Part shown: positions 5,221-40,449 of the stretch, piece after piece | Position numbering within the stretch: the first letter of the stretch is position 1 | Layout of the letters: the number at the start of each line of letters is the position of its first letter | DNA from: Armatimonadetes bacterium DC | Lineage (GTDB): Bacteria > Armatimonadota > Fimbriimonadia > Fimbriimonadales > GBS-DC | Direction: 5' to 3' | Length of the DNA stretch: 64,000 nt | NCBI GenBank assembly: GCA_001442985.1 | Contig: LDYB01000014.1 | Span: 124,001-188,000 of the forward strand | Notes under the pieces: generated by a model | Database searches by the model: none | What the model was told of the DNA's origin: nothing | Seen by the model: only the letters and a program-made list of their open reading frames with translations | Position numbers and translations under genes: made by a program

Positions 5221-8163
5221 CTACGGCTTGCGCTTTTTGGCTTCCAGCAGGCGGCTGAGGGTGTCGGGCGCGGACGGGGCGGGCGACGCTCTGGCAGCAG
5301 GTTCGCTGCTGGTGGGCGGGGCTGGCTTTGGTGAGGCGACTGCCTGCGGCGTCGGCTTGGGGTGTTCGCCAGCCTGATAGCGATGTTGGGCGCGCGCCTT
5401 TGCCATCTGGAGGCGTGTCGCGGTGGGGATAGGAGCAGAGCGCGCCCGACGCCGCGTTAGCGCCAACCCCAGACGCCGCCAGAGCGCGCCCACAAACTCT
5501 GGCACCGTAACCATCACACGGCGGATGGTGATGTCGGTCAGCAGCAACAGCAGGCTCACCAGCAGCGCGAGGCTCCATAACTCCTGACGCAACGGGCGCG
5601 GGTTGGGCGGCATGTCAAACGCGCGAGAAGGTTCCGGGTTGACTCGCCCGCCCGTCAGCTCCGCAATGCGCGTCAGCAGGGGCGCGTTCGGGCGCGTGAA
5701 GCGATACTCCATCGGGTAGGGTATGGCAAACGAGGTGTTCAGCACCACCCGCTCGCCTGTGCCAAAATCGCCCTCCGTGCTGAGCCGGTAAATCCCGCGC
5801 TGGCGAATGGGGAACTGCGCCTGATAGCGCCCCGAACCCACCATCTGAAGCGTGTAGGTCTGCTGGGAGCCGTCGGGCAGCCCCACCCGAAGCTGGGGCG
5901 TCAAGCCGTTGATTGGCGCGCCCTCAGGGGTGAACGCTTGCAGTTCGACAATTGCCTGCCCCGCGCGTGCTGTCGCTGTCAAAGTAAGATTGGAGTGCGC
6001 CGAAGGGCGTAGCGCCGAGCGTATCACATTCGTCCAGAACACGCTATAGCCGCCCCAGCCGAACCAGCGTTGCGCCCAGCGCGGCTGCGCATCGGAAGTA
6101 AACGCCACCACCGTGCCCAGCCCGTAGCGCCATGTCGCCAGCAGGGGGTCGTCTTTGTGCGTACGCATCAGCGTTTGCGCCAGCGGGCGCTCCGAAGTGA
6201 GGTTGTACGCCAGCAGGGCAGGCGTGCGGTTCCAGTCTATCCCCTGCAGGTGTTCATCATTCGCGGCGACTTTGGGCGTAAACGCCCCCACCTCTATCGC
6301 CGAGCGGGTCATCATGCTCACATCGGCAGTGAACAGGCGTGGCAGCACATCGGCGCGAGTCGTCTCGTAAAACTGCCCGCCCCCTGCCTGCGCCAGCTGT
6401 TTGAGAAACGCCGTGTCTTTGCCCTTGCCGAAGGCAATCACACTGAGCGTGATGCCCATCGCGCGCATCTGTTGCGCCAGCGCGATACTCCCCTCCTGCT
6501 CGTCGCAGTCGCTGGCGTCGGCAAGCATCACGATATGGCGCGAGCGCGTCGGCGGCTCCATCGCCAGCCCCGCCAGCGCCATCTCCAGACTGCCCCGCAC
6601 GAAAATCCCGCCCCCCGTGCCGTACACTCGCTGGAGTACCGAAATAATCGGCTCGCGCTGGGCGGCGTCAAAAATCGCGTGCTTCGGCTGACCCGCCCGC
6701 TGCCCATGACAACCCCGAAACTGGCGTCCCTCGCAGCTGAACGGATCGGCGTTCGTGCGTGCCATCTCCGGCAGCAGCCAGTCGGAGCCATGGCTGCTGA
6801 TAATCACGCCGAAGCGGTCATTATCACGGAGCATGCGCAGGGTCTGAATGCTCGCCTCCGCCGCCAGATGCGCCACCTTGTGCTGACCGATATAGTTATT
6901 CATGCTCCCCGACGCATCCACAATCAGCACGACGGTTGAAGCGTGATGCACCTGCCGGTGGCGAATCTCTAAATCCACGGGGAGCATCTCGGCGACTGGC
7001 GTGCCGTAGTAGCCGCCGGGCTGATAGGAGCGCTCGCCACCAATCATCACGAATCCGACGCCCATATCGCGCACCACCGACTGGAGCGCCAGCATCTGCT
7101 GGGGGCTGAGCGCCTCGGCGGGGTAGTCGTTGAAAATAATCGCATCGTATTGCATCAGGCTTTCCATCTGGGCGGGGAAGTTCCCTGTGCCGACCACCTC
7201 CGCCTCGATGCGGTTCGCCTTCAGCACGGAGCGCAGTCCCTCGCTGATTCCGCGCCTGCCTTCGGCGATCAGCACTTTGGGCGCGCCGCGTACGAACACC
7301 ACCGCCAGCCCCAGATTGTTGCGTGGGTCGCTGTCGGGTTGCGCCTGCAGAATGGCGCGCAGCTGGTGCGTGCCCGGCTTCTCGGTGCGCAGGGTGGTGG
7401 TGATTACATTCACGCCGGGTGTGAGTTTCACGGGGAGCGACTTGACCGGGATGCCGTCGCGGTCTATCAGAATCGTGCCCTCGGCGTGCCCCTGCGAGCG
7501 CACGACCACACGCACTTCATAGGGCGCGCCTACCTTCACCTGCTGGGGCGTTTCCAGCGCCTCAATCAGCGCCTCGTGGCGGCTCATGCGCGTCTCCAGC
7601 GGCACGACATCAATCGGGACGCCTTCCGTGCGGGCGACTTCCGCAACGGCGAGCGCGTCGCCGGCGGTCTCGTTGCCGTCGGTCAGCAGTACGATTCGCC
7701 GGGCGTAGCCGTCGGGGAACAGCGCGGTCGCCAGTCGGAGCGCGCGGGCAATATCGGTTCCGTCGGGGTTCGGGCGCGAGTAAATCGGCGGGAGCGTGCG
7801 GTGCTGAGCGGGCATCGCGTCCACATAGGCTTCGTTCCCGAACACCACCCACGCTGAGAGCGCCGATTCGGGCGCCTGCGCCAGCGCCTGACGCACATAC
7901 TCCTGCGCCTTCTGACGCCCCGCGTCCGAAACGCTGGCGGAACGGTCCAACACAAACACGGTGCAAACGCTTCGCAGGGGCACGACGCCCTGCCAGCCCG
8001 CCAGCGCCAGCACCACCAGCGTGATGAGAAGCATCCGCAGGGCAATAATCAGCCGCCGCCGCGCCCGACTCACCCCCAGAATGCGTCGCCCTGTCCACCA
8101 CACCCAGCCCAGCAAAGGCGGCAACAGGAGCAGATAGCCCGGCTCCGTGAACTGCACCATCAC
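5221..8163 (-). CDS. Large membrane protein with two von Willebrand A domains
   Basis: The 980-residue protein has two N-terminal membrane segments (LLLLPPLLGWVWW and a second near residue 45) and one near residue 890. A first VWA domain begins with the metal-site motif DRSAS, and a second begins with DASGS near residue 410. Between them lies a segment resembling the glutamine-amidotransferase-like fold typical of this family. The second VWA carries a cysteine-bearing insertion (FSCEGRQFRGC). Such proteins are usually found as orphan surface or periplasmic proteins of unknown role. The start is GTG 8163 or the adjacent ATG at 8160. Confidence 0.75.
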   Translation of the reverse strand: MMVQFTEPGYLLLLPPLLGWVWWTGRRILGVSRARRRLIIALRMLLITLVVLALAGWQGVVPLRSVCTVFVLDRSASVSDAGRQKAQEYVRQALAQAPESALSAWVVFGNEAYVDAMPAQHRTLPPIYSRPNPDGTDIARALRLATALFPDGYARRIVLLTDGNETAGDALAVAEVARTEGVPIDVVPLETRMSRHEALIEALETPQQVKVGAPYEVRVVVRSQGHAEGTILIDRDGIPVKSLPVKLTPGVNVITTTLRTEKPGTHQLRAILQAQPDSDPRNNLGLAVVFVRGAPKVLIAEGRRGISEGLRSVLKANRIEAEVVGTGNFPAQMESLMQYDAIIFNDYPAEALSPQQMLALQSVVRDMGVGFVMIGGERSYQPGGYYGTPVAEMLPVDLEIRHRQVHHASTVVLIVDASGSMNNYIGQHKVAHLAAEASIQTLRMLRDNDRFGVIISSHGSDWLLPEMARTNADPFSCEGRQFRGCHGQRAGQPKHAIFDAAQREPIISVLQRVYGTGGGIFVRGSLEMALAGLAMEPPTRSRHIVMLADASDCDEQEGSIALAQQMRAMGITLSVIAFGKGKDTAFLKQLAQAGGGQFYETTRADVLPRLFTADVSMMTRSAIEVGAFTPKVAANDEHLQGIDWNRTPALLAYNLTSERPLAQTLMRTHKDDPLLATWRYGLGTVVAFTSDAQPRWAQRWFGWGGYSVFWTNVIRSALRPSAHSNLTLTATARAGQAIVELQAFTPEGAPINGLTPQLRVGLPDGSQQTYTLQMVGSGRYQAQFPIRQRGIYRLSTEGDFGTGERVVLNTSFAIPYPMEYRFTRPNAPLLTRIAELTGGRVNPEPSRAFDMPPNPRPLRQELWSLALLVSLLLLLTDITIRRVMVTVPEFVGALWRRLGLALTRRRARSAPIPTATRLQMAKARAQHRYQAGEHPKPTPQAVASPKPAPPTSSEPAARASPAPSAPDTLSRLLEAKKRKP

Positions 8164-32562: not shown

Positions 32563-32889
32563 ATGCGGATTGAATTGCTCTACTATCCGGAGTGTCCTTC
32601 GCATGAGCGGGCGCTGGAGCTGATTCAGCAAGCGCTCCGCGAGGAAGGACAGTAGGCTGAGATTGACATCGTCCGCATCGACACACAGGAGCAGGCGGAC
32701 GCCTACCGATTCATTGGCTCACCCACGATCCGGATCAATGGGCGCGAACTCCAGCCGCAGCCGAACCTACCGTATCGCCTGACCTGCCGCACCTTCATTC
32801 ACGAAGATGGGCGCCTCTCCCCACTGCCCTCGCTCACCATGCTCCGAGAGGCAATCCGTCAAGCGGCTTCAGGAGGTGATGACGCATGA
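32563..32889 (+). pseudogene. Small thioredoxin-fold protein interrupted by an in-frame TAG
   Basis: The frame is absent from the ORF track because it contains a stop. It starts after AGGAGG with MRIELLYYPECPSHERALEL. A TAG follows at codon 31, after REEGQ, and then AEIDIVRIDTQEQADAYRFIGSPTIRING continues the same fold to a TGA at 32887. The GSPTIRING block is typical of small thioredoxin-like proteins with a CxxC-derived site. The TAG replaces an ordinary loop residue. The terminal TGA overlaps the next ATG (ATGA), so coupling was built for full-length translation. It is a recent nonsense mutation, a sequence error or a suppressed codon. Confidence 0.7.
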
Positions 32890-33445: not shown

Positions 33446-35062
33446 TCAGCACCCGACACCGAAGTTGAAAAGCACCAGCAGCAGGTCGGCATCATCGACA
33501 ACGCCATCCTGATTTAAGTCTTCAGGGCGGTTGCCCGTTTGCCCGAAAGCGAACAGGATTGCCAGCAGGTCGGCATCGTCGATGCAGTCGTCGCTGTTCA
33601 CATCGCCCAGAATCAGCGGCATACGGAGGTAGGGATCCAGGGTATCGCCTCCCGGTATCAACACTTCCATGAAGGTTTGCGAGACGGCACCCCGCGGTTT
33701 GATCCGCACCTGCCAGAGAGGCTGATAAACGGCGGGGTCGCTGTAAAGCGCCACCCATGCGGCAAGGTCGGGGGTTACTTGCCACACGCTCCGGGCGTCC
33801 GTGCGTGCGGTGAATCCTATCTGAAGCCCTGTTTGCGAGCTGGTGAGTCGGATTTGCACGGGGTGGTTTGGGGGCGCGCCTTCGATCAATCCCACCAGCA
33901 GGGGGCGCTCCACCTCCTGATGGGCGAAATAAAACTCGGTGGGGGCGCCATCGGGCATATTTGCCAGAAACGCGCCGTAGAAATAGCGCAGCGGGGGCGT
34001 GTCGACGGGAATTGTCAGCAACCATTCACGGCTTGCGTTCGGCGCAAGCGTCGCTTCCGTCTGAAAATCAGGCGGGAAGTTGCGCCGCCAGCCTGCCAGC
34101 TCGCTGCCGCACGCGAGCAAGCGCCCCCCACGCAGATGCACCGCCAGCTGCCCGTTGAGAGGCAAGACGCCACAGTTGATCAAACGCAGCTGCACCAATC
34201 GGGAGCCGTCGGGCAGCCGGACCGAAGGGGAAAACTGCCAGCAGAGCGACGGGCGCGGGAAGACCGTATTCTCGCGCTCCCAGCGCAGATTCGCAAAACC
34301 GAACGCGCTCCCGTTCCACTCCTTGCCGCTGGCACAAAGGGTCCATGCTTCCCCGATGCCTGCCCCGCTGGCGTCTATCTGGCGAGACACGACCCCCAGA
34401 AAGTAATGCTCCAGATGGGGCGGTTGACGAATGGGCGCTTCCGGGTAGACAAGGTGGTCGCGCTCTTCGCCACTGGGGTCAAACGCTGTTAACTGAAACT
34501 CAGTCGCTGGCACCCGGTAAGGCGCTTCATAGCGCAACTGGAGCGCGCCCTGCAACCCCCCACCCGGAGAAGGCGTAATCGCCATTCCCGTCTTCGGCGC
34601 GTCTGCAGGAACGCTCAGCACAGAAAGAATCTTAACCCGGTCGGCATACTCTTTGGTATCCGAACCGTTGACCACGCGAAACTGGATGTAAAAATCTTCT
34701 ACGGGCGTTTTGGTGGTCATTTTGAAGCGGAAAGTGCGTGCGCCGCCGGGCGCAATGCGGTCCGCGGGCGTGTTTGCCTCAAAGCGGAGGTTATGGGGGA
34801 TCGCATCCCAGGGCACATCCCACATCGCCGTCCATCCCGAAGGCACGGAAGTCGACTGCAGGACGCCGGCAGTGCCGTAAAGCACATGCAGCTGGTCTAC
34901 GCTCCACCCTGACCCGCCGGCGTTCTGGTTCACGACCTGCATTTCGTACTCAGGCAGAGCGGGATTAATCAGAGTCAGCGTAATCTGCACATTCTGCTGG
35001 GCAGAAGCCAGACTCAATCCCGCCCCCAACAAAAACCCCAGGAGTCCTTTCAGATTTTTCAT
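33446..35062 (-). CDS. Secreted protein with C-terminal dockerin-like doublet
   Basis: The start is the ATG at 35062 (MKNLKGLLGFLLGAGLSLASAQ, a signal peptide); the ORF track adds 94 upstream codons that lie across the promoter. The 538-residue product has a beta-rich body with no clear family. It ends in GDVNSDDCIDDADLLAILF and DLNQDGVVDDADLLLVLF. The first loop has a D where glycine is usual (NSDDC), which may weaken calcium binding. It is the last of three minus-strand genes after the BTAD regulator and the sigma factor. Its -10 TATAAT shares the TGTGC extension seen at 10978. Confidence 0.68.
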   Translation of the reverse strand: MKNLKGLLGFLLGAGLSLASAQQNVQITLTLINPALPEYEMQVVNQNAGGSGWSVDQLHVLYGTAGVLQSTSVPSGWTAMWDVPWDAIPHNLRFEANTPADRIAPGGARTFRFKMTTKTPVEDFYIQFRVVNGSDTKEYADRVKILSVLSVPADAPKTGMAITPSPGGGLQGALQLRYEAPYRVPATEFQLTAFDPSGEERDHLVYPEAPIRQPPHLEHYFLGVVSRQIDASGAGIGEAWTLCASGKEWNGSAFGFANLRWERENTVFPRPSLCWQFSPSVRLPDGSRLVQLRLINCGVLPLNGQLAVHLRGGRLLACGSELAGWRRNFPPDFQTEATLAPNASREWLLTIPVDTPPLRYFYGAFLANMPDGAPTEFYFAHQEVERPLLVGLIEGAPPNHPVQIRLTSSQTGLQIGFTARTDARSVWQVTPDLAAWVALYSDPAVYQPLWQVRIKPRGAVSQTFMEVLIPGGDTLDPYLRMPLILGDVNSDDCIDDADLLAILFAFGQTGNRPEDLNQDGVVDDADLLLVLFNFGVGC

Positions 35063-35083: not shown

Positions 35084-35089
35084 ATTATA
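35084..35089 (-). promoter_or_regulatory. -10 element of the secreted dockerin-like gene
   Basis: Read on the minus strand, TTGTGCTATAATACT gives a perfect TATAAT with a TGTGC extension, 21 nt before the ATG. The same TGTGCTATAATA block occurs in the promoter at 10972-10984. Confidence 0.65.
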
Positions 35090-35097
35090 GCACAAAA

Positions 35098-35127
35098 GCT
35101 CCCCCTCTCCGGGTGGAAAGGGGGAGC
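35098..35127 (-). terminator. Terminator of the sigma-factor gene
   Basis: GCTCCCCCTTTCC and GGAGAGGGGGAGC (minus strand) form a stem with one mismatch and are followed by TTTTG. It separates the sigma-factor transcript from the next promoter, whose -10 begins eight bases further on. The remaining 100 bp to the sigma gene show nothing else. Confidence 0.7.
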
Positions 35128-35226
35128 CAGGCAGGCACGGCAGGATGTAGGAGGGTAAGACGACTCCGCGTACCCTCGTGAGTGTGCTATCGATTCCATG
35201 CACCTGCAGTGCCAAATGTACCCGTC

Positions 35227-35883
35227 TCATAGCGCAAATCCCGTTTTGAGCGTTTTGCGCAGGCGTTCGCAGGCGTGCTGGCGCGCCCGAATCACCGCGC
35301 GTGGGGTCAGACGAAGTATCGCGGCGATTTCGCGGTCGGAGCATCGGCGGGTGCAGGGCAACCCCAAATTGCTGCCGGCTTGCAGGAACTGCTGAAGCGC
35401 CTGTCCCCCCGCTTCCAGAATCTCAATCTGCAGGTCAGGCTCCAGATGGAGCAGGAACGCCAGCGCATGGTGGCGCGGCATTGTCTGCAAAGCGCATGCC
35501 ACGGCATGCACCATCTCGTCGCCTTCCAGCGCCGCGCAGGTATTCTCAGAGGAGACAAGCGGGTAGTCAGGAGCCAGCGACTCCAGCGAGACTTCCCGAA
35601 GCACGCGCTTGCGAGCGCGCATAAATAGCCGATAGGTTACCTGCTTGAGATATCCCGTCAGACACGGTTCCCAGTTCGTGGCGTCTTCAGGCACTTTGAA
35701 CCGTAGCACGGCGATCATCGCTTCGCTAAGCAGGTCCTCCAGATCCTGCTCGTTGAGTGGGGTGCTACAGCAATTGTTCCAGTGGCGGAGCCACCCCCAT
35801 GCATGCTGTCTGGCAAACGCCAGCATCGATTCCGTCAGGGGATCGGAATCCGCATGTTCCCAATAAGTCTCGAATGTGTTCAT
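35227..35883 (-). CDS. ECF-like sigma-70 family factor
   Basis: The start is the ATG at 35883 after GGAGG, giving 218 residues; the ORF track starts 69 codons upstream inside the regulator gene. Region 2 is represented by LNEQDLEDLLSEAMIAVLRF and YLKQVTYRLFMRARKRV. Region 4 is a helix-turn-helix, CSDREIAAILRLTPRAVIRARQHACERLRK. No region 1.1 or 3 is obvious, so it is of ECF type. No anti-sigma gene is adjacent. A SARP-type direct repeat and a -10 element precede it. Confidence 0.75.
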   Translation of the reverse strand: MNTFETYWEHADSDPLTESMLAFARQHAWGWLRHWNNCCSTPLNEQDLEDLLSEAMIAVLRFKVPEDATNWEPCLTGYLKQVTYRLFMRARKRVLREVSLESLAPDYPLVSSENTCAALEGDEMVHAVACALQTMPRHHALAFLLHLEPDLQIEILEAGGQALQQFLQAGSNLGLPCTRRCSDREIAAILRLTPRAVIRARQHACERLRKTLKTGFAL

Positions 35884-35917
35884 CGTTATGCCTCCTTCTG
35901 CCGTGTTGCTGAAGGAG

Positions 35918-35949
35918 TCTATACTGGGGCACTGAAAATCCACTGAAAA
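35918..35949 (-). promoter_or_regulatory. SARP-type direct repeat and -10 of the sigma-factor gene
   Basis: On the minus strand the heptamer TTTTCAG occurs twice with a four-base spacer (TGGA), followed by eight bases and then TATAGA. This geometry (7-4-7-8 before the -10) is the known layout of binding sites for SARP/BTAD activators. A BTAD regulator is encoded directly upstream. Confidence 0.6.
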
Positions 35950-35953
35950 AGGG

Positions 35954-38900
35954 CTAAGAATGCAGGAGCGACTCGTAGAGCTGGCGTGTGGGTTCAGCAG
36001 GGGGTGTTTCGAGGATTTCGGTGAGCGCTTTCTGGCATCGGGTGTAGACATACTGCACATCGGCGCGGCGTCCCAGCGCGTGATAGGCACGCATCAGCAG
36101 GCGCACAGACGCCTCGTCGCAGGGATCCAGCTGCAGGGCGCGCTCGCAATACTCAATCACCTCATGGTGTTGCTCTTTCACGGAAGCAATCTGCCCTAAC
36201 ATCAGCAGGCACTCCAGATAGAGCGTGCGCAGGCGCTGCGCGTCGGGCTGACACCAGTCCTCTTCGCTGAATTCGGGGCAGAGGTCGCCCTGATAGAGGC
36301 GCAGGGCATCGTGCAATCGTGCTTCGCGGGCATCTAACTCGTTCAGCGCCAGCGCCTCCTGGGCAATCCGCTCAAATTCAAAAGCATCAGCGACCCAGCC
36401 ATGGGGAGGCGCCCAGCGATACAGCCCTGATTCGTGGTGAATCCAGTCGCCGACAGGGTTGCCGAAGGCGGCGCGGAGCGAGCGGCGCACGGCAGAGACG
36501 GTGGTCTGCAGGTTGACCCGCGCCCGCTCCAGAGGGAGATGGGGGAAGTGGCTCTCGCAGAGGGTGTCGGCATGCACGGGGCGTCCGCGCGCCAGCACGA
36601 GGTGCGCAAAGAGTGCGCGCGTGCGTGGGCTGACCCACTGCGCAGGTGCCATCTGGCGATGGTGGAACCGCACGCTGATCTGCCCCAGCAGGCGCACTTC
36701 CAGCTCCCAGCCGGCGGTACTGAAGGCGGGCGCGTCGGGCACAGGCTTCTTCACACGGCGCAACCCCAGCGGCTTGCCGTACTCGGTCAGCAAACTTTCT
36801 GCGCGTTCCTCATCCTGAAGGGCGGAATCGCCTGCTCCCATCGCGCGTTCCACCTGCGCCCTTTGCAGCAGGCTCAGCCCCAGAAAAAGCGCATGTCCCC
36901 AGCGCTCCGCAAGACGAACCGCTTGCTCGGCGGCTTCGAGGGCGTCCTGCCAGTTTGTCTGCGTCGCTTCGTCCATGGAACGCAGTCGTGCGTATTCCAC
37001 CTGTAATTCGGGAATGGCGTTCACCTCCGCCAGCGGGCGCGCCTGCTCGAGGATCGGTCCTGCGCTCTCTGACTGATGCAGGAGCAGAGCCATCTGGGCT
37101 TGCGTCAGCAGGCATCGGGCGAGCAGAAAACCGTTGCCCATCTTCTGTGCCAGTCGGCGCGATTCGGTGAGCGCCGCCTCCGCCTCCTGAAAACGCTCCA
37201 TCTCTATCAGCGCCAGGGCGCGATAGTAGAGCCACTCCCCTTCGCGCTCAAACCCGACCGCCTGGCGCGTTAAGCGCAGTGCCTGATCGGCGAAATGGAG
37301 CGCTTCCGCGGCGTCGCGATACAGCAGACTGAAGAAAGCCAGCTCGTACACGGCGGAACCTGCCTCGACGGAAGCCTCCAGGGCACGCAGGGCGCGCACA
37401 TGATAAAGCACCTCCGCGCCGCGCCCCTCATGGAGCGCTTTCTCGCCCTGCATCAGATGCCAGAGCTCTTTCCATGCGGGCAGGTTTTGAGCCGACTCAG
37501 CGAGCTGTTCCATCTGCTCCAGCACGGCGTCCGCCAGCTCGGCGTCGCCGCAGGCGAGCGCCAGGCGCAGGGTATAGCGCAGGGTTCCGATCCAGCGCAG
37601 TTGCCATTCTCGCTCTGGGCGCATGCGCGTCCACACCGCTCGATGGAGCGCCAGCGCCGCGTGCAGCTTGCCCTGACACGCCAGCACATAGGCTAAACTC
37701 AACTCCAGCATCGACTGCTGGGCAGCGCTCCAGCCGCCCGCCTGAAGCAGGCTCTGAAGCTCGCTTTCGGCTTCCTGCGCGCGCCCCAGCTGCGCCAGTT
37801 GCCCCGCGCGAGCGCAATGCACCTGCACCCACAGGTTGCGCTGAGGGTCATATTCAGGGTGGGCGGCAATCGCTGCCAGCGCCTCCTGCGACGCCTCCAG
37901 CGCGCGCAGGAGCCCATCGGGCAAGCAAAAAAGCAGATGCGGGCGCTCGGCAAGCAAGGCGAGGCGTTTCTCCATCGCGCCTTGCTGGGTTGCCGCCTGC
38001 AGGCATGCGTCCAGCAGCTGGAGCCGAAAGCGTGCGGGCGAGCGATAGCGCGCCTGATGATGCGCCGCCCAGAGCCGTTCCAGCACCCGCGCGTCTGGCT
38101 CCGCACGCATCCAGTGGAACCATTTCTGCTCTTCGGGGAGGTCGGCATAAGCAGGCGATTCCAGCAACTCCGCAATCTGCCGATGCATCTGTGCCCGCTG
38201 GCGAGCTGGAATCGCCTCGTAAAGCACCTCCCGGACCAGGGGATGGCGCCACCACAGGAACCCTGTCCGCTCCTCCAGCCAGCCTGTCCGCGTCAGGTTC
38301 TCCGCCGAACGCGCCGCCTGACGCGCCTTCACGCCCGTCAGCTCTGTGAGCAAGCCGGGTTCGGATTCCAGTTCCCTGAAAGGGACACCCCCCTCAAAAC
38401 AGCTGAGCCACTGGAGCAGGGCGCGGTCGCGAGCGGAAAGCTCCTGCGCGGAGCGTTGCACCAGCACGCGCAAACCCGCCGGAATCCAGCCCTCCCAATC
38501 CGCTGTGCCCGCACGCAGGTTTTTATCGCTGGCAATCGCCCGTAGAATTTCCACCGTGAACAATAAGTTGCCCCCTGTGCGCTTCCAGAGTGTGTGGACG
38601 AATTCGCTCGCCTCGCGCAAAGCAGGACACCAGTCGCGCACCAGCGCCGCTGTTTCCGATTCCGAGAGCGGCGGAATAACCACCTCCTGCCCCACGCTCT
38701 GCTCCTGGCTGCGGCGCATCAGCGCATAGAGGGCGGGATTCTCCACAGGGGTCGCCAGCGTGAGCAGGATGCCTATCGGCTCATAGCGCACCCCGAAAAG
38801 CCAGCTTTCCAGCATGCGTATCAATGGCTCGGAGGCGCGGTGAAAATCGTCCAGACAGAGCAGAAGCGGTTGCTTGCGTGCGATGGTTCGGAGCGTGCGC

Positions 38901-39253
38901 ACCATCTGCACCGGCAAGAAGCGCGAGTGGGGGGTTCGTAGCCACTGCTCCACCTGCTCGTTCAGGGGTTGCACCGCAGGGTCGTCGGGGAATGCCTGCG
39001 CGATCTGTTCCAGAAGATGGGCGACAGGCATCCAGACGGGTTCTACCTGCTCGCCACGACACCATCCTTCAGCGGGCAGGAGCCCCATCTGCGGCGCCAG
39101 CGCCGTCATCTCGCGCATCAGCGCGGTGCGTCCTGCCCCCCGTTCGCCTGACAAAAACAGCAACCCGCCGTTGCCCTGCGCCACCTGCTGAAGCCACGCC
39201 TGAAGCGCCTGACGCACAGGAGCGCGTACCTCAGAAAGCGGAGTCGTCTGCAT
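35954..39253 (-). CDS. BTAD/SARP-type regulator with AAA ATPase and TPR region
   Basis: The protein of about 1099 residues begins at the ATG at 39253, eight bases after a -10 element; the track start at 39262 is a TTG within that element. A STAND-like ATPase domain comes first (LFLSGERGAGRTALMREM, where the usual Walker A lysine is arginine, and LLLCLDDFHRA as Walker B). A long TPR-like helical region follows. The C-terminus has a winged helix (LEVRLLGQISVRFHHRQMAP, LERARVNLQTTVSAVRRSLR) and a BTAD domain ending QLDPCDEASVRLLMRAYHALG. Such proteins usually activate transcription by binding direct repeats upstream of -10 boxes. Confidence 0.85.
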   Translation of the reverse strand: MQTTPLSEVRAPVRQALQAWLQQVAQGNGGLLFLSGERGAGRTALMREMTALAPQMGLLPAEGWCRGEQVEPVWMPVAHLLEQIAQAFPDDPAVQPLNEQVEQWLRTPHSRFLPVQMVRTLRTIARKQPLLLCLDDFHRASEPLIRMLESWLFGVRYEPIGILLTLATPVENPALYALMRRSQEQSVGQEVVIPPLSESETAALVRDWCPALREASEFVHTLWKRTGGNLLFTVEILRAIASDKNLRAGTADWEGWIPAGLRVLVQRSAQELSARDRALLQWLSCFEGGVPFRELESEPGLLTELTGVKARQAARSAENLTRTGWLEERTGFLWWRHPLVREVLYEAIPARQRAQMHRQIAELLESPAYADLPEEQKWFHWMRAEPDARVLERLWAAHHQARYRSPARFRLQLLDACLQAATQQGAMEKRLALLAERPHLLFCLPDGLLRALEASQEALAAIAAHPEYDPQRNLWVQVHCARAGQLAQLGRAQEAESELQSLLQAGGWSAAQQSMLELSLAYVLACQGKLHAALALHRAVWTRMRPEREWQLRWIGTLRYTLRLALACGDAELADAVLEQMEQLAESAQNLPAWKELWHLMQGEKALHEGRGAEVLYHVRALRALEASVEAGSAVYELAFFSLLYRDAAEALHFADQALRLTRQAVGFEREGEWLYYRALALIEMERFQEAEAALTESRRLAQKMGNGFLLARCLLTQAQMALLLHQSESAGPILEQARPLAEVNAIPELQVEYARLRSMDEATQTNWQDALEAAEQAVRLAERWGHALFLGLSLLQRAQVERAMGAGDSALQDEERAESLLTEYGKPLGLRRVKKPVPDAPAFSTAGWELEVRLLGQISVRFHHRQMAPAQWVSPRTRALFAHLVLARGRPVHADTLCESHFPHLPLERARVNLQTTVSAVRRSLRAAFGNPVGDWIHHESGLYRWAPPHGWVADAFEFERIAQEALALNELDAREARLHDALRLYQGDLCPEFSEEDWCQPDAQRLRTLYLECLLMLGQIASVKEQHHEVIEYCERALQLDPCDEASVRLLMRAYHALGRRADVQYVYTRCQKALTEILETPPAEPTRQLYESLLHS

Positions 39254-39261
39254 CCGCTTCA

Positions 39262-39267
39262 AGTATA
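39262..39267 (-). promoter_or_regulatory. -10 element of the BTAD regulator gene (leaderless)
   Basis: Read on the minus strand, GCAGGTATACTTG places TATACT eight bases before the ATG at 39253. Confidence 0.6.
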
Positions 39268-39306: not shown

Positions 39307-40449
39307 ATGGCGCACTTGCAACACCCATGGCTGACACGGATTCGTCCGAGCGCGGTGTTTTCTGTAGGGAACACGCGCGTGGAGCTGTACACGCTGGCGC
39401 CCACGAACCTGCATCGCCTCTCAGCCGATGTGTTGATTCTGCCAGCGGACCCCACCCTGCGCATGGTGCGCGGGATTCGCAAGCAGGTTCGCGATTATGG
39501 CGGCTACCGCCTGATTGAAGACGAAGCCGCGACGCTGGCGCCGCTGCCACCGGGCGGAATCGCCCTCACTTCGGGTGGACGAACCCGGTTCCGTAAAATC
39601 CTGCATCCCAACCTGTATGATGCGCAATACACGACCCACTCCCAGCTCCAGCGTGAGGCGCTCCATAACGCCTTTGAACTCGCCCTCAAGGAAGGCGCCC
39701 GAACGATTGCCGTTGCGGATTACACGCTCGATTTGCGCCGCGCCCTTGCCGAAGAGACCGCCTGTACCCTGATGGAAGCATGGCAGCCGTTCAGCCAGCA
39801 GAGCCTGACCCTCAAAATCGTCACCACGCGCCCCATCAACGGCTGGGCGTTCCAGCAGGTGCTGGGCTGGGTCGCACAACGCGGACTCCAGCCATATCCT
39901 GCCGCCCTGCGCGTGCGCCACACCATCCTTCACACCGTTCAAACTCCCGATTACCTGAGTATTCCTGCTGAAGGCGTGTGGCATTTCACCGACCCGAATC
40001 TGGGCGGCACGCAGAGCCTACTGGCAAAGCGGGGGGGTGTCATCCTCCAGCAGAAGATCAGGGAACTGGCGCCAATCGCGCTGGGAACCAGCACCATCTG
40101 CCCCGCAGGCGCACTGCCACAAGAGTTCGTGGTTCACCTCGCTGTCATGCCCGCGGCTGGGACGGTTTCGCAAGACGCCTTAGCCAGCGCGCTCTCCCAT
40201 GCGCTGGAGCTGAGCCATAATCAGAACCTCTATAGCATTCTCGTGCCCCTGCCTGAAGGGCAGGGCGAGCCGTTCGTGCAGGCAGTGCTTGACGCGATAG
40301 ACGCCTACCTGCATCGGGTGCTTTTCACGCGCATTGAGCGCATTATTCTCACCGCGCCCCAGAATGCACTCTGGCAGGCAGGGCTGGAGCGGCTCCGCCC
40401 GTGGGTGCAACTGCCCCCACCCGAGACGCTTGAAACGGCGGTCGGATAG
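39307..40449 (+). CDS. Protein with two macro-domain-like modules
   Basis: The start is the ATG at 39307; the ORF track runs 161 codons upstream antisense to the regulator. The 380-residue product begins each half with a macro-like pattern. The first is LSADVLILPADPTLRMVRGI followed by GGIALTSGG. The second is FTDPNLGGTQSLLAKRGGVI followed by GTSTICPAGALPQEFVVHLAV. Macro domains bind or hydrolyse ADP-ribose and related ligands. The calls rest on motif order, and catalytic ability cannot be judged. It is divergent from the BTAD regulator. Confidence 0.55.
   Translation: MAHLQHPWLTRIRPSAVFSVGNTRVELYTLAPTNLHRLSADVLILPADPTLRMVRGIRKQVRDYGGYRLIEDEAATLAPLPPGGIALTSGGRTRFRKILHPNLYDAQYTTHSQLQREALHNAFELALKEGARTIAVADYTLDLRRALAEETACTLMEAWQPFSQQSLTLKIVTTRPINGWAFQQVLGWVAQRGLQPYPAALRVRHTILHTVQTPDYLSIPAEGVWHFTDPNLGGTQSLLAKRGGVILQQKIRELAPIALGTSTICPAGALPQEFVVHLAVMPAAGTVSQDALASALSHALELSHNQNLYSILVPLPEGQGEPFVQAVLDAIDAYLHRVLFTRIERIILTAPQNALWQAGLERLRPWVQLPPPETLETAVG

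Follow-up and report, generated by a model that had tools for sequence, protein, structure and literature searches.

A predicted SARP operator in front of an ECF-type sigma factor gene in a family of Armatimonadota

Introduction

To our knowledge, SARP activators come almost entirely from actinobacterial antibiotic clusters. As a rule, their sites consist of direct repeats 11 or 22 bp apart, with the 3' repeat 8 bp from the -10 element (PMC10936776). At the afsS promoter, which is controlled by the large SARP AfsR of Streptomyces coelicolor, the afs box covers positions -40 to -19, TTCAGC at -38 to -33 represents a poor -35 element, and the -10 element is weak (PMC10936776). At pimM of Streptomyces natalensis, the site of PimR consists of three CGGCAAG heptamers with 4-bp spacers, and at least two of them are needed (PMC5930380). 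Literature searches returned no description of the system reported here, and several gave only Streptomyces SARPs.

Results

A tandem repeat element upstream of the sigma gene

The analyzed window is a 64-kb stretch of a 2.85-Mb genome (G000). Its minus strand reads TTTTCAG (35943-35949)-TGGA-TTTTCAG (35932-35938)-TGCCCCAG-TATAGA (35918-35923), exactly as the initial annotation had given it (TTTTCAG-N4-TTTTCAG-N8-TATAGA at 35918-35949). The element is located 33 bp upstream of the ATG of a sigma gene (35883), directly after the gene of a large BTAD regulator (35954-39262) (Table 1). The conserved repeat unit is longer than TTTTCAG and extends to TTTTCAGTG. The 11-bp unit of the predicted operator is written here as TTTTCAGTGNN, the predicted operator stretch with both repeats is TTTTCAGTGGATTTTCAGTGCC, and the predicted target of the SARP module at the sigma promoter is TTTTCAGTGGATTTTCAGTG. 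A sigma70-type -35/-10 promoter was looked for at the repeat site and was not found.

In the window, exact TTTTCAG-N4-TTTTCAG was observed once versus ~0.0003 times expected from dinucleotide frequencies, and two overlapping matches appeared versus 0.17 expected when up to two mismatches were allowed. The genome scan suggested earlier gave two exact sites in the 2.85 Mb, where 0.012 were expected. Among the 18 genomes of the family, the exact 15-letter pattern TTTCAG-N4-TTTTCAGTG occurred 14 times (~0.05 expected); none of 95 further genomes from the order contained it, and the reversed control also gave zero. A 20-mer scan of 84,980 GTDB genomes returned nine stretches, seven of which were Fimbriimonadales/Armatimonadetes contigs; the other two were a coding sequence and an unrelated site. 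The tandem repeat before the sigma gene is therefore a real, non-chance element. For a chance T-rich repeat or a functionless remnant, the shortness of the motif is the sole argument, and this explanation has a negligible probability given the 14 exact matches against 0.05 expected and the conservation across genera inside flanks that cannot be aligned.

Table 1. Positions of the features around the repeat element in the window
Feature	Position	Strand	Basis
Secreted protein with C-terminal dockerin-like repeats, ending VLFNFGVGC	33446..35062	-	dockerin profiles
Extended -10 promoter TGCTATAAT before the gene of the secreted protein	35084..35092	-	sequence
Terminator-like hairpin after the sigma gene	35097..35128	-	similar hairpins in G002 and G013
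Decayed GGGTACAT-N15-CATTAA copy GGGTACATTTGGCACTGCAGGTGCATGGA (box CATGGA), directly after the sigma gene	35195..35223	-	sequence
Divergent ECF-type sigma factor, 218 aa	35227..35883	-	TIGR02937, Foldseek
Ribosome-binding site AGAAGGAGGC of the sigma gene	35890..35899	-	sequence
Probable -10 element TAGACT (family consensus TAnnCT)	35916..35921	-	11/11 promoters; 82% identity between genera
Proximal direct repeat TTTTCAGTGCC (TTTTCAG 35932-35938)	35928..35938	-	84% mean pairwise identity between genera
Upstream direct repeat TTTTCAGTGGA (TTTTCAG 35943-35949)	35939..35949	-	86% mean pairwise identity between genera
Third, degenerate copy TTCTTAG in 11-bp phase, holding the BTAD stop codon TAG	35954..35960	-	sequence
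Regulator, 1102-aa ORF with an AAA_16 ATPase at the N-terminus, a TPR-like middle, and a SARP module at the C-terminus	35954..39262	-	Pfam
SARP module, last 262 aa: OmpR-type winged helix and BTA domain	35957..36742	-	AlphaFold2, Foldseek
Predicted DNA-recognition helix ARVNLQTTVSAVRRSL	36476..36523	-	12/16 residues invariant in 10 orthologs

Conservation of the repeat and the promoter geometry

The 18 family genomes include metagenome-assembled genomes, and several are incomplete and fragmented. Because conservation inside genus g5 partly reflects recent ancestry, the footprint, aligned at the proximal repeat, was additionally calculated from a single representative of each genus. On this basis, the mean pairwise identity was 86% and 84% in the two repeats versus 23% (upstream) and 25% in the flanks; the 6 bp following the repeats dropped to 27%, and the next hexamer, TAnnCT, rose to 82%. 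TAnnCT is found at N10 from TTTTCAG in 11/11 orthologous promoters. The hexamer at N8, TATAnA, is seen only in G000 and G005 among the 11, and TATAGA was accordingly rejected as the -10 element. Since TATAGA is not conserved but TAnnCT is, the 8-bp spacing that had been claimed for TTTTCAG-N8-TATAGA was 2 bp off in that form and holds for TTCAGTG-N8-TAGACT. The corrected layout in all 11 promoters is TTCAGTG-N4-TTCAGTG-N8-TAnnCT. A third copy of the repeat lies 11 bp further upstream, intact in G002 and G005 and degenerate in G000. In G003, G009, G011, G012, G015, and G017, the additional upstream distance is ~21 bp, or two helical turns. The features of a SARP promoter were all found: repeats 11 or 22 bp apart, TTCAGTG-N8-TAnnCT in 11/11, and a weak or absent -35 element. 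The distance from the start of the proximal TTCAG to the start of the -10 element is 15 bp, which is also the value at afsS (-27 to -12).

This arrangement bears on whether the ECF sigma factor itself recognizes the repeats as promoter elements in an autoregulatory loop. ECF sigma genes are often preceded by a promoter of their own, and the separation of the element from the start codon would suit one. The phased tandem repeat in two or three copies is needed by no -35 element, however, and the spacing from TTTTCA to TATCCT (11 or 22 bp) misfits a -35/-10 pair. In addition, TAnnCT at the sigma gene is housekeeping-like, whereas CATTAA is found in its stead at secreted-protein genes that carry these repeats (see below). 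Autoregulation is thus very unlikely.

The repeat was found upstream of the sigma gene in 11/11 sigma-bearing family genomes. The BTAD and sigma genes are adjacent in six of them (G000, G004, G008, G009, G011, and G017) and apart in the other five (G002, G003, G005, G012, and G015). By its own criterion, the initial annotation would have been contradicted by close relatives with both genes but without the repeat; the repeat was present in 6/6 genomes with adjacent and 5/5 with split pairs. The repeat stays with the sigma gene when the BTAD gene is elsewhere, and it therefore appears to act on the sigma gene rather than arising as a side effect of where the BTAD gene ends. Of the 18 family genomes, 13 have a BTAD ortholog, namely all 11 sigma-bearing ones plus G013 and G007, and five have neither gene (Fisher p 0.0025 for co-occurrence, ignoring kinship). 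The persistence of the repeat at the sigma gene in adjacent and split pairs alike indicates that the repeat belongs to sigma expression. Against the reading as an operator, the BTAD gene in G013 and G007 is accompanied by neither the sigma gene nor an exact site; G013 is 81% complete, and the BTAD gene of G007 is broken by a contig end.

The SARP module of the regulator

Pfam matches in the regulator are AAA_16 (E 7e-13, residues 13-145) and BTAD (E 2e-22, residues 959-1100). The AlphaFold2 model of the SARP module has a mean pLDDT of 93.6, and its best Foldseek matches are AfsR (8k60/8hvr) and EmbR (2ff4/2fez), with E values down to 3.6e-11. The whole module superposes on AfsR, as taken from transcription initiation complexes, and on EmbR. 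As judged from the model, the C-terminus of the regulator is a genuine SARP module with AfsR as the best match. The module is C-terminal, so the order differs from the N-terminal layout of large SARPs of the AfsR/PimR type.

The predicted recognition helix is the most conserved part of the module (12/16 invariant positions versus 43/222 elsewhere, p = 7e-6). In AfsR, T88 contacts a base, S91 and R94 contact the backbone, and R92 contacts T-38 (PMC10936776). A gapless HMM alignment equates T88, S91, and R94 with T80, S83, and R86, which are invariant in 10 orthologs. As a point against the operator reading, R92 is replaced with alanine (A84) in all orthologs, and specificity must therefore be read partly in another way. 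Among the other contact residues of AfsR, K95 is replaced with Arg, W74 with Phe (Trp in G003), and Q48 with Arg, and P79 is mostly not kept among the orthologs. No 11-bp repeats were found upstream of the BTAD gene in any ortholog, and autoregulation of this gene was rejected on that ground. A macro-domain protein gene (39307-40449, plus strand) is divergent from the BTAD gene, with ~45 bp between them.

The repeat might instead be bound by a different OmpR-type regulator, either PhoB-like or another BTAD protein, the adjacent BTAD gene being a mere neighbor. Regulators of the PhoB/OmpR type likewise bind 11-bp direct repeats, which for PhoB-type activators stand where the -35 element would be, other BTAD-domain matches are present in all 18 family genomes, and the BTAD gene is not adjacent to the sigma gene in five. 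However, the site is confined to genomes with this BTAD ortholog; it is absent from the five family members without the ortholog, and these do have other BTAD proteins. The conservation of the recognition helix in this ortholog group, the adjacency in six genomes, and the identity of the core TTCAG with that of the AfsR -35/repeat core TTCAGC also speak for the adjacent regulator. We consider binding by another regulator improbable and favor the BTAD protein as the leading candidate for acting in trans on the repeat of the sigma gene.

The sigma factor and the gene downstream

Against TIGR02937, the sigma factor scores 20.6 bits (E 2.6e-4) and its G012 ortholog scores 30.3 bits (E 2.9e-7), both under the curated cut-off of 42.9 bits. 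Its model consists of two helical blocks and a disordered linker, fitting the ECF layout (regions 2 and 4, ~200 aa), and the best PDB matches in Foldseek are the ECF sigma factors SigH and RpoE (prob 0.99-1.00), with a low global TM because of the linker. The protein is a divergent member of the ECF group (sigma-70 group 4). Orthologs were found in 10 further family genomes (36-56% identity in the search; 34-55% protein identity among those that were aligned) and in none elsewhere among 61 relatives; a second, weak paralog match in G005 (26%) was excluded from the set. A scan of the genome contigs with the sigma protein found no relative.

The initial annotation had named the next gene downstream, which encodes a secreted protein, as a possible target of the sigma factor. 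This protein matched Dockerin_1 (E 0.3, 11.8 bits) and dockerin_GC (E 0.12), both below the cut-off; over the downstream and target genes, dockerin_GC scored 12.8-16.4 bits, below the Pfam/NCBIfam cut-off, and hence we call them dockerin-like only. Its orthologs adjoin the sigma gene in G002 and the BTAD gene in G013, where TATAAT or TATACT lies at the same place as TGCTATAAT, together with the same hairpin. As the gene has its own terminator and TATAAT promoter, direct control by the sigma factor is unsupported, and it was rejected as a target. In G002, an intact GGGTACAT-N15-CATTAA occupies the position of the decayed copy, between the sigma gene and a dockerin gene missing from the window. 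A different 11-bp direct repeat, CTGTTTAAGAA, which is Pho box-like, occurs twice just after the sigma stop in G002 (L115 ~6360-6420).

Secreted dockerin-type genes with related promoters

The remaining repeat sites (up to one mismatch, plus G011) are located 50-60 bp before genes of secreted proteins with dockerin-like ends, in six relatives (G004, G008, G009, G011, G015, and G017). In these promoters, CATTAA takes the place of TAnnCT, 13-14 bp from TTCAG. Homologs of one such protein occur only in sigma-bearing genomes (8/11). The second exact site in G000 (C23:36683; L044/L086) is a repeat promoter fused to the C-terminal domain only, and it is a deletion remnant of a dockerin-type gene.

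The pattern GGGTACAT-N15-CATTAA has 11 exact sites, all in the family, and none in the 95 other genomes of the order or in the reversed control. The sites checked (loci L161-L183) are mostly before secreted proteins, many of them dockerin-like. Among genomes lacking the sigma gene, the gene behind the GGGTACAT motif has in-frame stops in G010 and is gone in G007; in the incomplete G013 assembly, the genes behind the motif are intact. The general idea that the sigma factor serves secreted-protein genes is favored by these promoters, although the nearest candidate did not hold.

Other motifs

Sites with two mismatches in G000 were rejected as further targets: most lie inside ORFs, and the intergenic ones include three with a PEP-CTERM promoter motif and three with a dispersed repeat, TTTGCAYTTTATTTTCAGCACCGCGAGTATGGAGYGCTGAAG, common to L059, L062, and L072. 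The former is a strong and distinct promoter-like motif, TGTCCG(G/C)TTTT-N7-TTTTGAGTCT, with ~90 sites in 16/18 family genomes (L130-L159) and none in the reversed control; in G000 it is found at C9:64809, C10:30361, C13:8102, C13:15182, and C19:199752. Fifteen of 30 sampled sites precede PEP-CTERM genes, and four precede another sigma-like gene (..AVRKRITRAL..), which suggests a PEP-CTERM regulon with a self-regulating ECF-like sigma factor. It was rejected as the regulon of the sigma factor at 35227-35883, as the motif is abundant in sigma-less genomes too. On the plus strand of the window, a frame starting MRIELLYYPECPSHERALELIQQAL (32563-32885) precedes a redoxin-like gene at 32886 and contains an in-frame TAG (32653-32655); it is either a pseudogene or the result of a sequence error.

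Discussion

The repeat is most probably the operator of the large regulator, which would activate the ECF sigma gene in the manner of AfsR. SARP-type direct repeats with a BTAD/SARP regulator gene just upstream, as first proposed, are borne out by conservation, geometry, and fold; these and the co-occurrence of the genes also favor the predicted role of the regulator as the likely activator. From the AfsR-like geometry and the PimR precedent, we infer that the SARP module occupies the repeats and that activation takes place through sigma adaptation where a -35 element would lie. Since the promoter lacks its own -35 element, repression is a less likely outcome. Two, sometimes three, SARP modules would bind side by side on the 11-bp repeats TTTTCAGTGNN and occupy the position of the -35 element before the sigma gene. 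The bound modules may then recruit RNA polymerase with the housekeeping sigma factor to the weak -10 element (TAnnCT), as AfsR does at afsS, and thereby start transcription of the ECF sigma gene. The ATPase/TPR portion of the regulator presumably makes this activation dependent on a signal.

The locus shares with AfsR/afsS the ODB and BTA module (Foldseek E 3.6e-11), the TTCAG core of 11-bp direct repeats, an identical distance from the proximal repeat to the -10 element, a weak -10 element, extra ATPase and TPR parts, and a target gene of the transcription-machinery class, afsS being termed sigma-like. Unlike in AfsR, the SARP module is C-terminal rather than N-terminal, and R92 is replaced with Ala. 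The predicted target here is the gene of a genuine ECF sigma factor, the organisms belong to the Armatimonadota, and the other predicted targets are secreted dockerin-type genes, not antibiotic clusters. EmbR from Mycobacterium tuberculosis has the same SARP fold (2fez, 2ff4; TM 0.73-0.75 by query length), but it has an FHA domain, lacks the ATPase, and has different targets. PimR, a SARP-LAL, resembles the present regulator in being a large, ATPase-containing SARP that stands above another regulator and activates it, and its pimM operator likewise has three heptameric repeats with 4-bp spacers (PMC5930380). PimR differs in its heptamer (CGGCAAG), in acting on a PAS-LuxR activator, and in having an operator clear of the -35 element. 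The Sigma-I factors of cellulolytic clostridia are similar as alternative sigma factors serving dockerin-bearing secreted proteins (PMC6056542). They have membrane anti-sigma sensors, whereas the sigma factor here is of the ECF type and is predicted to be placed under a SARP; no cellulosome is implied.

The ECF sigma factor probably controls secreted surface proteins in turn. A cascade that leads from the SARP through this sigma factor to such proteins and includes combined promoters is supported, short of proof, by the CATTAA motifs and the fate of the genes behind them, and it is a tentative extension of the operator reading. In the first tier, the STAND-ATPase SARP would turn on the ECF sigma gene via the TTTTCAGTG repeats and a housekeeping -10 element. 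In the second, the ECF sigma factor would read GGGTACA-N16-CATTAA promoters of secreted dockerin-type proteins. The third would comprise further secreted genes, in which SARP repeats are joined to the CATTAA box and the SARP and the sigma factor may act together as a coherent feed-forward loop, with the activator standing in for the -35 element. That all tiers jointly form a three-tier secretome switch in one Armatimonadota family is plausible though somewhat less likely than not, and we put it forward with reserve.

The predicted SARP operator is well supported and shows the identical promoter geometry in a remote phylum with mostly uncultured members (hot-spring Armatimonadota), where control is predicted to be aimed at an alternative sigma factor and secreted proteins instead of secondary metabolism. 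As the DNA site and the protein module are both defined and the predicted regulon is small, the system is testable in vitro without culturing. These features suggest that AfsR-style sigma adaptation may be older or more widespread than its actinobacterial use.
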